Shown here: positions 18,967 through 24,098 of the stretch, one piece after another
How the letters are laid out: every line of letters starts with the position of its first letter
How positions within the stretch are numbered: position 1 is the first letter of the stretch
DNA from: Actinomycetes bacterium
Lineage (GTDB): Bacteria; Actinomycetota; Acidimicrobiia; Acidimicrobiales; Palsa-688
NCBI GenBank assembly: GCA_021850325.1
Contig: JAJZMF010000045.1
Coordinates: forward strand, 1-64,000
Direction: 5' to 3'
DNA: 64,000 nt
The notes under the pieces: model-generated
Told to the model about the DNA's origin: nothing
The model's input: only the letters and a program-made list of their open reading frames with translations
The model's database searches: none
Program-made: the position numbers and the translations under genes

Positions 18967-19809
18967 CTACCAGGGCTCGACCCCGAGCAGTTTGCGGCCA
19001 AGCGGGCTCATCACCGCCAGCTGGGCATCGTTGTAGCGACGGGGCCCCGACTTGGGGTCGCCACCGTGGGCGTGGTCGCAACGGATGTAGCGGACGAAGT
19101 AGGCCAGCCTGGCCCTGGGGAGGCGGTTGTGCGAGGCGGCGTGGGGCATGAGGTGGTGCAGTACGGCGAAGTCCCCGGCGCGGCCGGTCACCTCCACTGT
19201 CTCCATGGGCGGCAGCCGCTTCCAGTCGTCGTACAGGTGGCGCCCACCCGGCCGGCTGGCTGACTCCTCCAGGACCCTGCGGTGGCCGCCGGGCACCACG
19301 TGGATCCCGCCTCCCCCCGGCTCCACGTCGGTCAGGTAGTAGCAACCCCCCACCTGCAGCTCCTCCGGCGTGCCGAGGAACTGGTCAACGTCCTTGGGCA
19401 CCGAGCAGTCGATGTGCAGGTTCTGGCTGAGAGCGTGGTCGGGCCCCGACATGTTGCGCATGGTGACGCCCACCGAACCGTCGAAGACACGCAGGCATGG
19501 CGAACCGAGCAACTGGGCCGCCACCTGGTAGAGACGCTCGTTGCAGAGCAGGGGCAGGAGGTCGGGCCCGTCGATGCAGTCGTCGAGCACCCCGCCGGCG
19601 CCCCGGCGGTAGGGCTTGAAGCGGCCGGCGTTGGCGTTCCACTCCCCGGGCACGCTCAGGTCGCGGGGCATCATGTCGAGCACCGCCCGCGAGTACACCT
19701 CCACCTCTCCGGCCGACAGCACCGAGGGCACGAGGATGTAGCCGTCCCTGAAGAACGCCTCCACCTCGTCCGGCCGCAGTGCCGTGCCCTCACCGGTTAC
19801 GGTCGCCAT
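18967..19809 (-). CDS. phytanoyl-CoA dioxygenase (PhyH) family protein
   Basis: A 280-aa Fe(II)/2-oxoglutarate-dependent oxygenase. EVEAFFRDGYILVPSVLSAG is the typical start; QNLHIDCSV supplies the HxD iron ligands; AVLHHLMPHAASHN supplies the distal His; and RLAYFVRYIR the 2-oxoglutarate Arg. GGIHVVPGGHRR is also typical. Substrates in this family range from fatty acyl-CoAs to natural products and are not predictable here. ATG at 19809 has AGGAGGTG at ideal spacing. It lies 108 bp downstream of the kinase gene on the same strand. Confidence 0.88.
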   Translation of the reverse strand: MATVTGEGTALRPDEVEAFFRDGYILVPSVLSAGEVEVYSRAVLDMMPRDLSVPGEWNANAGRFKPYRRGAGGVLDDCIDGPDLLPLLCNERLYQVAAQLLGSPCLRVFDGSVGVTMRNMSGPDHALSQNLHIDCSVPKDVDQFLGTPEELQVGGCYYLTDVEPGGGGIHVVPGGHRRVLEESASRPGGRHLYDDWKRLPPMETVEVTGRAGDFAVLHHLMPHAASHNRLPRARLAYFVRYIRCDHAHGGDPKSGPRRYNDAQLAVMSPLGRKLLGVEPW

Positions 19810-19917
19810 CCCCACACCTCCTGCGCCTGGCCCCCGGCGCAGCCTGGGAGCGCCCCGCCTCAGCCTATCCCCGGGGCCGTCTGCGTCCCGCAAGCGCCGC
19901 GGTCGGCCGGGCCGGTG

Positions 19918-21168
19918 TCAGTGAGCGCGAACACCCTGCACGGAGGGGGCCGTGCCGAAGCCGGCGGTAGCGCACCTCGCCCCGGTGCGGCCCGGGAGGG
20001 CCTCCGACGCCAGCACCAGGTCCACGTTGGCCACCCGCCAAGCAGAGCGTCGGCTGTACGCCTCGGCCTTGGCGACGTTGCGCGAGACATGCTGGGCCCA
20101 GGCCAGCACCAGGGTGGCCGCACGGGCCTGGCGTTCGACGCGACCACCCGGGGCAGCCTGCCCAGCCGGGGCGGGAGAGCCCCACCGGAGGGCCACGCGC
20201 TCGAGCTCGCTCCACCGCCCGGGGCCGACGAGGCCCTCCCAGGCCGGTACGGCCTCCGGCCTCCGCAACAGCCCGGTGACGACCTCACCCATGTCCAGGC
20301 CCAGGCGCTGCATCACGGTGGAGACGACGAGCAGCGAGGTGTCCCGGCCCAGGAGCCCCCGGGGCGACCCGGCACCCCAGTCCACCACGCCCTCCAGGAC
20401 CGTGCAGCCGGGACCGCCGAAGAGGAGGTTGCCCGGGCTGTAGTCCCCGTGCGACCAGCCCACCAGGACATCGGTGCCGTACAGCACCTCGGCCAGCACG
20501 CCCTCCAGGCGGGACAGTGACCGGACCTGCCAGGAACCGGCCCGGTAGAGCGAGCCGATGGCTGCCAGTGGCTCCCCGACCCACTCTGCCAGCAGTGCCT
20601 CGTCCGCTCTCGCCCTGGTGGCGGTGGCTGCGTGCAGTTGGGCGACGGCGTCCAGGGCGTTGCGCAAGGCCGGCGCAGCACTGGCCGGGGGCCCAGCCAG
20701 TGCCTTACGGCCGTCGACGCGGCCCCGGCGCCGCTCGACACTGACCGCCGGGAGCGCCTCCAGGTCGGCGTGCACGACCTCGGGCAGCAGGGCCGACCAG
20801 CCCCGGGCGCGGGAGTCGGCCGCTATGCGGCCCCGGACGAGGCTGTCGAGGCGCATCTCCTCAGCCGCCCTCGGCTCCGTGGCCAACTTGGCCACCACCT
20901 CCGACCGGTCACCGCAGGCCACCACAGCCACGATCAGGGCCGACCCGCTCGACACCACCTGGACATGCTGGCGTCCCTGGGCGCACCGGCCGCCCATCGC
21001 GGCCAGTGCCCGCGCCACCTCGTCGGCTCCCTCGAGGCGACGGACGCCCTGCGGGCCCCGGCCCGACAATGCCCGGGCCGACCACCACAAAGGCGCCGCC
21101 CACCTGCGCCGGGACGCAGAGCGCGCCACTAGTACCAACCGGCACCAGAGGTACCTGAGGTACGCCAC
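19918..21168 (-). CDS. APH/choline-kinase-like small-molecule phosphotransferase
   Basis: About 416 aa. The C-terminal half has the catalytic loop GWSHGDYSPGNLLF (HxDxxxxN) and the metal motif VVDWG, as in aminoglycoside/choline kinases. The likely ATP-binding Lys lies in SEVVAKLATEP. The N-terminal third is basic and not recognised. GTG at 21168 is the best start; it overlaps the upstream 989-aa gene by 40 bp, so the two are translationally linked. The substrate is unknown. The link to a PRTase/HAD fusion suggests it phosphorylates an intermediate of the same pathway. The start could also be further inside the frame. Confidence 0.7.
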   Translation of the reverse strand: MAYLRYLWCRLVLVARSASRRRWAAPLWWSARALSGRGPQGVRRLEGADEVARALAAMGGRCAQGRQHVQVVSSGSALIVAVVACGDRSEVVAKLATEPRAAEEMRLDSLVRGRIAADSRARGWSALLPEVVHADLEALPAVSVERRRGRVDGRKALAGPPASAAPALRNALDAVAQLHAATATRARADEALLAEWVGEPLAAIGSLYRAGSWQVRSLSRLEGVLAEVLYGTDVLVGWSHGDYSPGNLLFGGPGCTVLEGVVDWGAGSPRGLLGRDTSLLVVSTVMQRLGLDMGEVVTGLLRRPEAVPAWEGLVGPGRWSELERVALRWGSPAPAGQAAPGGRVERQARAATLVLAWAQHVSRNVAKAEAYSRRSAWRVANVDLVLASEALPGRTGARCATAGFGTAPSVQGVRAH

Positions 21169-24098
21169 GCTCCCCTGGGCGCCGGCACCGGGCCCCGGCG
21201 TACGCGAGAGCGCGGCTCTCCCCAGTACCGATAGCTCCTCCCCGCTAACAGCCGCGTCGGTGACCCTACCCATCCCTGCGCGAGTTCCATCACCAACGCC
21301 CTCAAATGCCGGCTGCCCGAGCTGTGGGTCGACAGCAGTGCCACGAGCTGCCGGTGCTCCGGCCCCATGCCGGGAGCCCTGCAGAGCGGGCAGCTCCCGG
21401 GCGCGTGGCCGAGAAGGGCGCCCACACCTTCGGCCACGCCCGCCTGGTAACCGGTACCGACCACTACCACTCCCCCGCTGTGCCGCAGTGCCGGGCTGCA
21501 GTTGGCAGGTGCCACTGCGATGGCGGCTGCCCTGAGCATGCCCAGGTCGCTCCGGCTGTCGCCCACGGCAAGACAGAGGAACCGGCCGGTTCCCTCGGTG
21601 CCCCCGGTGCCCTGCCGGCCCGCCGTCCCGACCAGGGCCCGCAGCCCGGCTGCCTTCTCCGTCCCGGGTAACAACATGTCGGTCTGGTTCTCGCCCCGGA
21701 CGACCTCCCACTCCCCGGCCAGGTCGCCGAGCAGTTCGTTGCCCACGGCGCGCCCGGGACCACGGCCCCGACGGCGCACCCTCACGCTGTAGGCGTGGAA
21801 GGGGCTCAGCTCCAGGCCCGGCGTACCTCCCATCTGCACGCGCAACTGCGCCAACCTGCTCGTCCCGGTGCCGTCGACCAGGGGGGTGACCACGCCGTCA
21901 ACAGCCCGGTAGGCTGCCGCCCCGTACTCGGCCGTCCCACCCGGGAGACCGAACGCGCTGCACCTCTCCACGACCTCACCCACCGACCGCCCGGTGGCCA
22001 ACAACGTCGGTACCCCGTGGGCACGGAGGGCCCGCAGCGCCATCGCCCCGGTGCCCGTCGTGGCCGAGAAGCCGAGCACCGCCCCCTCCAGGCACCCGTC
22101 CAGGTCGAGCGCGCAGGGGGCGACGGTGCCGCTCAAGGGCACCGTCGCCAGGTCGGAGAGGAAGGTGGCGGCAAAGAACTCGTTCACGGCCCGGCTAGAC
22201 GCCCTGGCCGCCATCTCCTCGTCCACCTCCCCCCGGCGCTCCAGGTCCCAGAGGCGGACCAGCCGGTGGAGCAGCCACCGCCCCTCGTCGGGAGCCTTGC
22301 CGGAGCGGTGTGCCCAGGCTTCGGCGTAGCCGGCGGCGCCCGGTGCCACCACCTCAGGTGCACCGTGGCCGGGGACCGCTTGCCCGGGCGCCACGGCCTC
22401 CTTGGCCAGCCCGGCCAGGTCCGCCTCCACCGCCGCCGCGGCCAGGTCATAGGCGGCGTCGTAGCAGGCCAGGTCGAAGTGCCAGAAGGCCCCGGTGGCT
22501 GCTCCCCGCTTGACAAGCCTGCCCTCGTCGTCGCGGTACCACAGGGAGTTGCCCATGCACCCGTCGATGACCGAGGCATCGGCCGTGACCAGCAGCCGCC
22601 GGGCCAGGGGCGCGAGCAGCCCCATGCGCAGGACGGGCAAGGGCCGGCCGGTGAGAGGTGCCAGCGCCCGCGAGGCCGCCTCCCAGAGCGGGAGCCGGCC
22701 TCCCATCGCCGGCGTGGGGTCCCCCTCGGTCCCCAGCGCCCGCCGGCGGAGGTCGACGTAGGCTGCCACCTCCCGGGCGACGGGTGGCTCATCCAGGTCG
22801 GCACCCTGCCAGCCGCCGGGTGGCTCGGTCATGTACACAAGGCCGTCCCCGAAACCGAGCACAGGCTCCACGGCGGGGCCCATGGCCCGGCTCACGGCCA
22901 GGGCGTGACGACCGAACATCCCGGTCCCGGTCCCCTCCACGACGAGCTCCATGGCCTCGACGACGCTGCTGCCCGGTGGCAGCAGGGCGATGTCGTAACG
23001 GGCCTGCACGTGCCGGCGCCCATCACCCACCCGCTGACGGGCGAGACAGGACAGGACCTGCGAGCCCCCCGCCAGGTGCTCGACCGCGTGGGCCACCTGG
23101 GCCGGCTCCAGTAGGCGCTGGACGTGCCAGTCGTCCCAGGGCAGGACGACGGCCGGGTAGCGCGCCAGGGCCGGGGCAGGCACCATGGCCGTCCCCGCCA
23201 GCGCGAGCAGCAGCGCCACCGCCGATGGGCCAGCGCCCATGCCCTCGAGCTGGGAGGCCACCCTGGCAAGGCTGCGGCCGCTCACAGGTGGGTCGTCCAT
23301 CAGCAGGGCGAGGCCCGGCCCCGCCGTGACCCTGGCCAGCGTGCTCCGGGCGGCCGCCGGGGGTGCCACCCCCGGGCGGAGCGTCACCACGGACACCTCG
23401 GCGTAGCCCTCCGCCCTCAGGCAGGCGGCAGCCAGCGGGGCGAGGTAGCTGCCCGATGTCCTGACCCCCACCACCACGATGGGCCGGGACCGGTCCGGCC
23501 AGCGCCCGGCCGCCCGCCGGACCAGCTCTCTCACGTCCTCGGGGTGCTGGTCGAAGCTGCGGAAACTGGAGGGCAGGCGCAGCACCTCCGACCTGGTACC
23601 CCCGGGCAGGCTGGCAACCCCACTTTCGGCGGCCTCCAGCAGCGCCGCCAGCACCGCCTCGTCCGGCCCCGGCTGGCCGACCACCGGGGGGGCCAGGGCA
23701 TCGCGCAGCCGGGCCAAGGCCCCCGACACTGAGGCCAGCGCCCTGCCCGTGGAAGTGGCCTCGCTCACGAGGTCCGCCCCGGCAAGGGCCGATCGGGCCG
23801 CCCTCAGGACCGCCCGGCGCGTGAGGCCCGGCGCCTCCATCTCCTCGACCAGCTGGCGCCACCACATGCGCCGCCCGGTGCGGGCAGAGCCCGCCATGAG
23901 GTCCTCGGTCACCTGTACCGCGGCTGCGCTCACGAGGTAGGCATCGAGCCAGTAGCCCTTTGCCACTGCCGTTCGGGCCAGCCCGGGAAGCCGTCCGAGG
24001 GGCTGCAACAGGTCCACCAGCACCAGCCCCCGGTCGTCGGGAGCCCCAGGGCCCGTCCGGCCCGGTGCCCTGTCGTCCGGCCGGCCCTCAAACGACAT
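21129..24098 (-). CDS. PRTase-like / kinase-like / HAD phosphatase fusion protein
   Basis: A 989-aa cytosolic protein with three parts. About 160-330 resembles a phosphoribosyltransferase: IVVVGVRTSGSYLAPL near 207 and a PRPP-loop-like LLMDDPPVSGRSLARV near 265. About 365-650 looks kinase-like: VVEGTGTGMFGRHAL (N-lobe) and VIDGCMGNSLWYR followed by FWHFDLACYDAAYDLA, where the catalytic HxD of true kinases is altered. About 660-900 is a HAD phosphatase: LDLDGC (665-670), ATGRS (701-705), Lys815, and VGDSRSDLGML. A CPLC pair (903-906) starts the C-terminal tail. ATG at 24098 has no ribosome binding site; TAAACT 9 bp upstream could be a -10, giving a leaderless mRNA. Similar PRTase, kinase and HAD sets occur in nucleoside-like metabolite pathways; that link is inference. 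Confidence 0.75.
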   Translation of the reverse strand: MSFEGRPDDRAPGRTGPGAPDDRGLVLVDLLQPLGRLPGLARTAVAKGYWLDAYLVSAAAVQVTEDLMAGSARTGRRMWWRQLVEEMEAPGLTRRAVLRAARSALAGADLVSEATSTGRALASVSGALARLRDALAPPVVGQPGPDEAVLAALLEAAESGVASLPGGTRSEVLRLPSSFRSFDQHPEDVRELVRRAAGRWPDRSRPIVVVGVRTSGSYLAPLAAACLRAEGYAEVSVVTLRPGVAPPAAARSTLARVTAGPGLALLMDDPPVSGRSLARVASQLEGMGAGPSAVALLLALAGTAMVPAPALARYPAVVLPWDDWHVQRLLEPAQVAHAVEHLAGGSQVLSCLARQRVGDGRRHVQARYDIALLPPGSSVVEAMELVVEGTGTGMFGRHALAVSRAMGPAVEPVLGFGDGLVYMTEPPGGWQGADLDEPPVAREVAAYVDLRRRALGTEGDPTPAMGGRLPLWEAASRALAPLTGRPLPVLRMGLLAPLARRLLVTADASVIDGCMGNSLWYRDDEGRLVKRGAATGAFWHFDLACYDAAYDLAAAAVEADLAGLAKEAVAPGQAVPGHGAPEVVAPGAAGYAEAWAHRSGKAPDEGRWLLHRLVRLWDLERRGEVDEEMAARASSRAVNEFFAATFLSDLATVPLSGTVAPCALDLDGCLEGAVLGFSATTGTGAMALRALRAHGVPTLLATGRSVGEVVERCSAFGLPGGTAEYGAAAYRAVDGVVTPLVDGTGTSRLAQLRVQMGGTPGLELSPFHAYSVRVRRRGRGPGRAVGNELLGDLAGEWEVVRGENQTDMLLPGTEKAAGLRALVGTAGRQGTGGTEGTGRFLCLAVGDSRSDLGMLRAAAIAVAPANCSPALRHSGGVVVVGTGYQAGVAEGVGALLGHAPGSCPLCRAPGMGPEHRQLVALLSTHSSGSRHLRALVMELAQGWVGSPTRLLAGRSYRYWGEPRSRVRRGPVPAPRGAWRTSGTSGAGWY

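Follow-up and report, generated by a model that had tools for sequence, protein, structure and literature searches.

A candidate two-step ribosyltransferase uniting PRTase, kinase-like and HAD domains in one actinobacterial protein

That bacterial glycan ribofuranose can originate from a PRPP-dependent phosphoribosyltransferase (PRTase) acting with a HAD phosphatase is recent knowledge, drawn from Gram-negative prototypes and one Thermobacillus structure (PMC11127046, PMC11231755, PMC10299916, PMC12096443). In Klebsiella O antigens, the PRTase adds ribose-5-phosphate to the glycan and a HAD domain dephosphorylates it (PMC11127046, PMC11231755), and ribofuranosyl glycans are likewise made by the PRPP-using PRT and HAD phosphatase of Bcs3 in the Hib capsule (PMC10299916) and by the PRPP-dependent PRTase and HAD of Cj1432 in the C. 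jejuni capsule (PMC12096443). The window analysed here, a stretch of 64,000 nucleotides, comes from a draft genome of 3.18 Mb (contig C35) and encodes a 989-aa protein in which a PRTase, a kinase-like domain and a HAD phosphatase are joined (Table 1). By analogy with these glycan systems, we propose that it is a PRPP-dependent two-step ribosyltransferase acting on a polysaccharide or another molecule.

Domains of the 989-aa protein and its kinase partner

An earlier note, made from the sequence, had read in this region a 989-aa frame with a PRPP-loop-like segment, a variant kinase with an altered HxD, a complete HAD phosphatase and a CPLC tail, overlapped over 40 bp by a second, intact APH-type kinase, and each of these features held up. 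The ATG-started frame represents a true gene rather than a random open frame, since 26 full-length homologues align over almost the entire protein at 29-56% identity. A search of named genomes found relatives at 45 loci, the majority of which align across most of the query, so the family is real; three other matches (G053, G107 and G137) were rejected as ordinary HAD proteins or chance. Carriers include Streptomyces, Streptacidiphilus, Amycolatopsis, Pseudonocardia, Rhodococcus, Actinospica, many actinobacterial MAGs and Chloroflexota, as well as a few MAGs labelled Dormibacterota, Bacillota, Rokubacteria and Ignavibacteria, though the phylum-wide frequency sampling scored few candidates per genome and its count is not reliable. 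One genome (G152, contig C21, L016/L021) encodes a stand-alone 421-aa protein that matches the family only in its HAD domain and Cys tail, and no PRTase part was found within the 19 kb around it. Our literature searches returned no description of this three-domain architecture, and one may exist elsewhere.

Motif counts and domain profiles were taken from an alignment of 27 family members, through which most domains were resolved; the window protein alone, in single-sequence searches, gave a weak HAD match only. Its whole-length AlphaFold2 model is confident (pLDDT 86, pTM 0.89). For the N-half domain, PF00156 matches 12 of the 27 members (best 1.1e-5); the window's own copy falls below the Pfam cut-offs, and its assignment rests on the family. 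Against PDB profiles the segment matches mostly PRTases, led by PyrR (best E 0.001), with GVRTSGSYLA opposite GIKTRGIYLA and DDPPATG opposite DDVLYTG in the alignment. The type I PRPP-binding loop, (hydrophobic)-DDxxx[TS]G, is retained throughout the family (DD in 26/27, T/S in 26/27, G in 25/27). Residues 160-330, on whose placement in the PRTase superfamily the earlier note had made its reading depend, thus fall inside the type I PRTases; GVRTSG is invariant, and the profiles support a type I PRTase with an intact PRPP loop.

The HAD domain is recognized by PF08282 in 25/27 members, and its motifs DLD, TGR, K815 and GDSRSD are invariant in all 27, so that every catalytic residue of the DxD, T/S-G, K and GDxxxD series is in place. 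Its structural matches 1wr8 (TMt 0.80) and 1kyt are C2-capped HADs, which assigns it to the C2-capped (IIB) phosphatases. Directly behind it, the CPLC sequence is part of an invariant H898-x4-C903-x2-C906, possibly a metal site.

The middle domain is probably a kinase fold that has lost standard kinase chemistry. Modelled separately (pLDDT 88), it adopts the bilobal APH fold, and Foldseek relates it to LicA choline kinase, methylthioribose (MTR) kinase and APH(3')-Ia (E 4e-6 to 1e-3, TM ~0.5), while its sequence gave no convincing PDB match. VIDGCMGNSLW stands where HGDxxxxN would be expected: D512, K530 and D547 are invariant in the 27-member alignment, the Asp is followed by a Gly and a variable position, the Asn is not conserved, and the catalytic HGDxxxxN with its following Asp is missing. 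Profile comparison of the domain with the intact neighbouring APH kinases also gave no match, and we rejected an active kinase on these two grounds.

The separate kinase is, by contrast with this middle domain, intact. Its 40-bp overlap with the long gene holds given a GTG start at ~21168, its stop lying at 19918. Homologues occur at 21/45 loci, either as a separate gene or fused to a flippase; HGDxxxxN is present in 15 of the 16 partner kinases inspected, and the N-lobe K, HGD, N and D are invariant in the eight that were aligned. The fusions, in which a Wzx-like polysaccharide flippase is joined to an intact APH-type kinase (L025:12757-15147, L029:2233-4680, L030:13413-16265, L047, L053 and L062), suggest that phosphorylation is coupled to export of a lipid-linked glycan. 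Directly downstream of the window's kinase, on the same strand, lies a PhyH gene that was not found as a recurrent neighbour.

Table 1 Features of the locus (positions in the window; residues of the 989-aa protein).
Feature	Residues	Position	Strand	Basis
Phytanoyl-CoA dioxygenase-like (PhyH) gene downstream of kinase		18967..19893	-	Pfam PhyH 2e-11
Intact APH-family kinase		19918..21168	-	Pfam APH 4.8e-7; HGDYSPGN...D; GTG start assumed
PRTase / kinase-like / HAD protein, candidate two-step ribosyltransferase	989 aa	21129..24098	-	ORF, ATG start; homologues in 45 loci
GHxPGxCxxC tail	897-906	21381..21410	-	Invariant H and two C in 27/27
HAD phosphatase, C2-capped type	660-895	21414..22121	-	PDB profile matches to Cof/YidA-type phosphatases (3niw/1rkq), E ~1e-11; Foldseek 1wr8/1kyt; motifs invariant
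APH/choline-kinase-fold domain without HGDxxxxN	346-655	22134..23063	-	Separate AF2 model, Foldseek, column counts
PRTase domain	~165-345	23064..23606	-	PF00156 in 12/27 homologues; PDB profile matches PyrR, OPRT, APRT
PRPP-loop motif DDPPVSG	268-274	23277..23297	-	Column counts; second D in 26/27
Near-invariant GVRTSGSYLAPL motif	211-222	23433..23468	-	Column counts
N-terminal region	~1-164	23607..24098	-	Mostly helical (DSSP of AF2 model); without family match

Gene neighbourhoods across the family

Across its members, the family belongs to exopolysaccharide clusters and, less often, to RiPP-like or plasmid-borne clusters. Among the 25 loci with full flanks, counted with related species (several of them Streptacidiphilus) taken separately and scored with HMMs trained on these same loci and named from Pfam, GT2 and polysaccharide deacetylase genes were each present in 19, a Wzx-like flippase in 18, a polytopic protein with 7-12 TM segments in 17, an APH kinase and GH16 in 16 each, and GNAT in 11, versus 0/18 for the same gene families in control 20-kb stretches of the same genomes. 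The gene content is alike in Chloroflexota and Streptomyces loci.

In the window's own genome, glycan genes do not adjoin the 989-aa gene, and both the flippase-type gene and the polytopic protein are missing there and in the closest relative (G001), which retains a GNAT gene downstream; the window's copy is therefore a reduced or relocated form consisting of enzyme and kinase. In another genome (G005), a flippase gene lies close by and the polytopic protein is encoded ~10 kb away. The earlier note's idea of a stand-alone biosynthetic module stands as to its biosynthetic kind, and as to its isolation in this genome and largely in the closest relative, but not across the family. The polytopic family, which has no Pfam match and is possibly a polymerase or GT-C enzyme (L023:6639-8606, L027:15118-16938), has relatives in 11/297 sampled genomes. 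Obligate co-occurrence of this protein with the enzyme was rejected in a broad genome sample: genomes that carry it mostly do so without the PRTase/HAD enzyme, so the link is optional.

Two genomes (G025 and G026) place the PRTase/HAD gene in a lasso-peptide-like arrangement with a PqqD-like protein (1.2e-16), an Asn-synthase-like cyclase, HprK-like kinases, a B2-like transglutaminase-fold protein and an ABC exporter; Transglut_core3 and Asn_synthase matched and lasso_B2 stayed below its cut-off. Such clusters were seen at L011 and L013 (L057, L058, L065), and a precursor peptide was sought in them and not identified. The PRTase/HAD protein might thereby yield a ribosylated RiPP, yet as a general function this context was rejected, being confined to 3/45 loci (L057, L058 and L065). 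A single Transglut_core3 match exists in the window's own genome, where it lies on a different contig.

Plasmids of Streptomyces sp. MMBL 11-1 and NBC_01724 carry a gene annotated as phosphoribosyltransferase followed directly by a separate HAD gene. The MMBL 11-1 protein comprises the PRTase and kinase-like domains (A3 profile, E 4.3e-39), and its separate HAD, the record tested, is of another subclass, HAD_2. Both operons (L127, NZ_CP117710.1; L129, NZ_CP109170.1) consist of GNAT, NAD-dependent oxidoreductase-like, small-protein, methyltransferase, PRTase/kinase-like and HAD genes, and a B12-binding radical SAM gene follows the one on NZ_CP117710.1. On at least two occasions, then, a phosphatase has been paired with the PRTase core, a recurrence that speaks for the PRTase product as the substrate of the phosphatase.

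Proposed function and its alternatives

Functionally, we posit that the PRTase domain would transfer ribose-5-phosphate from PRPP to an acceptor, and that the HAD domain of the same chain would then remove the phosphate, leaving ribose on the acceptor. The likely role of the kinase-like domain, its standard catalytic residues lost, is to bind the acceptor or to keep the domains in position. For the separate APH kinase, the probable substrate is an acceptor or a sugar belonging to the pathway. We give this reading a probability of about 0.6. Two-step ribofuranosyl transfer best explains the locus because known glycan systems combine these two activities in gene neighbourhoods of this type; the intact PRPP loop, the invariant HAD catalytic residues and the exopolysaccharide context in both Actinomycetota and Chloroflexota (11-19 of 25 loci per gene family versus 0/18 controls) speak for it. 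Against it stand the missing sequence relation to characterised glycan PRTs and their phosphatases among the listed PDB matches, the lack of flippase and polytopic protein in the window genome and G001, the optional nature of the polytopic link, and a kinase partner for which the known two-step scheme offers no role.

A rather unlikely alternative is that the product is a small nucleoside- or sugar-phosphate-like metabolite and no glycan, in which case the PRTase would couple a base or small molecule to PRPP, and the product would be dephosphorylated by the HAD and activated by the kinase. By profile, the PRTase comes closest to PyrR, OPRT and APRT, enzymes that act on bases, the core recurs in a plasmid-borne cluster whose other genes include radical SAM, methyltransferase and GNAT, and glycan genes are absent beside the window's gene; however, GT2 genes accompany 19 of the 25 full-flank homologous loci, and Ter-type markers are absent. 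The PRTase_2/TRSP module of Ter clusters, which has PRTase and HAD partners, is proposed to make a nucleoside-like metabolite. The relation to it that the earlier note had raised was rejected: TerD and PRTase_2 were searched for in the window's genome and not found, and hhalign with Ter PRTase_2 proteins gave a probability of 1%, aligning only the generic DDxxxTG, so that the two share a PRTase of different, by profile unrelated, families.

It is improbable that the product is polyprenyl-phosphate ribose, a lipid-linked donor from which pentose would be transferred outside the cell, as in the mycobacterial DPPR route. Three-component routes of such a kind exist (PMC11127046), and Wzx-like flippases and the polytopic protein are common neighbours; yet the polyprenyl phosphoribosyl synthases known so far belong to the UbiA-type membrane proteins (PMC11127046), whereas the 989-aa protein appears to be soluble, its one weak hydrophobic stretch lying inside the PRTase. 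Very improbable is a fusion with a regulatory or moonlighting role, in which the kinase and HAD would run a cycle of phosphorylation, with the PRTase serving merely as a PRPP sensor. Although kinase and phosphatase adjoin and the superfamily regulators PyrR and pur operon repressor are both among the profile matches, the catalytic motifs of PRTase and HAD are invariant or nearly so, no DNA-binding domain was found, and the neighbours are biosynthetic.

Returning to two-step ribosyl transfer, a bolder and less likely reading is that the family is a transferable ribosylation module, in which one PRTase/kinase-like core, joined by different HADs on different occasions, would place ribofuranose on various scaffolds (exopolysaccharides, lasso-peptide-like RiPPs and a plasmid-borne natural product), with the kinase-fold domain binding the acceptor. 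If the ribosyltransferase reading is true, the gene would be a marker for actinobacterial polysaccharides that contain pentofuranose and perhaps a pointer to ribosylated RiPPs, and cultured hosts (Streptomyces guryensis, S. tateyamensis, Streptacidiphilus species and Amycolatopsis orientalis) allow testing.

Comparison with described ribosylation systems

With the dual-domain gPRT and PRP enzymes (Klebsiella O4/O7, Thermobacillus composti, CriT/CrpP of Hib Bcs3, and Cj1432), the 989-aa family has in common the PRTase and HAD on one chain and a location in surface-polysaccharide gene clusters. It differs in its kinase-like domain, its Cys tail and the neighbouring APH kinase, in a C2 HAD cap resembling Cof and phosphoglycolate phosphatase where CrpP has an inserted alpha-helical cap, and in the adjacent DD of its PRPP motif, the acidic residues of Bcs3 lying in two different loops (PMC10299916). 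Judged from PDB match lists, the family has no detected sequence relation to the characterised glycan PRTs and phosphatases: T. composti and Bcs3 entries were absent among the matches listed for the HAD profile (60 of 74), for the PRTase profile (all 46) and by Foldseek (best 50).

Two further routes resemble the proposal in their chemistry. In butirosin and neomycin biosynthesis, the PRTase BtrL and the phosphatase BtrP, which are separate proteins, ribosylate a hydroxyl in two steps, through PRPP and then dephosphorylation, on a small aminoglycoside acceptor; the likeness drawn here is one of described activity. The mycobacterial DPPR route (Rv3806c, Rv3807c) also proceeds from PRPP to a ribosyl-5-phosphate and then to a phosphatase, but there the first enzyme is a UbiA membrane protein and the phosphatase is no HAD (PMC11127046). 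Because of the missing sequence relation among the listed matches, the different HAD cap and PRPP motif and the extra domain, we do not file the 989-aa protein as a gPRT/PRP member, yet it would work like the glycan ribofuranosyltransferases. If a family with this pairing in Streptomyces, Amycolatopsis, Rhodococcus and Chloroflexota is unrelated to them, or very distant, the same solution would have arisen more than once. The chemistry is known from Gram-negative capsules, and the protein family that would carry it out here is differently built and apparently undescribed.
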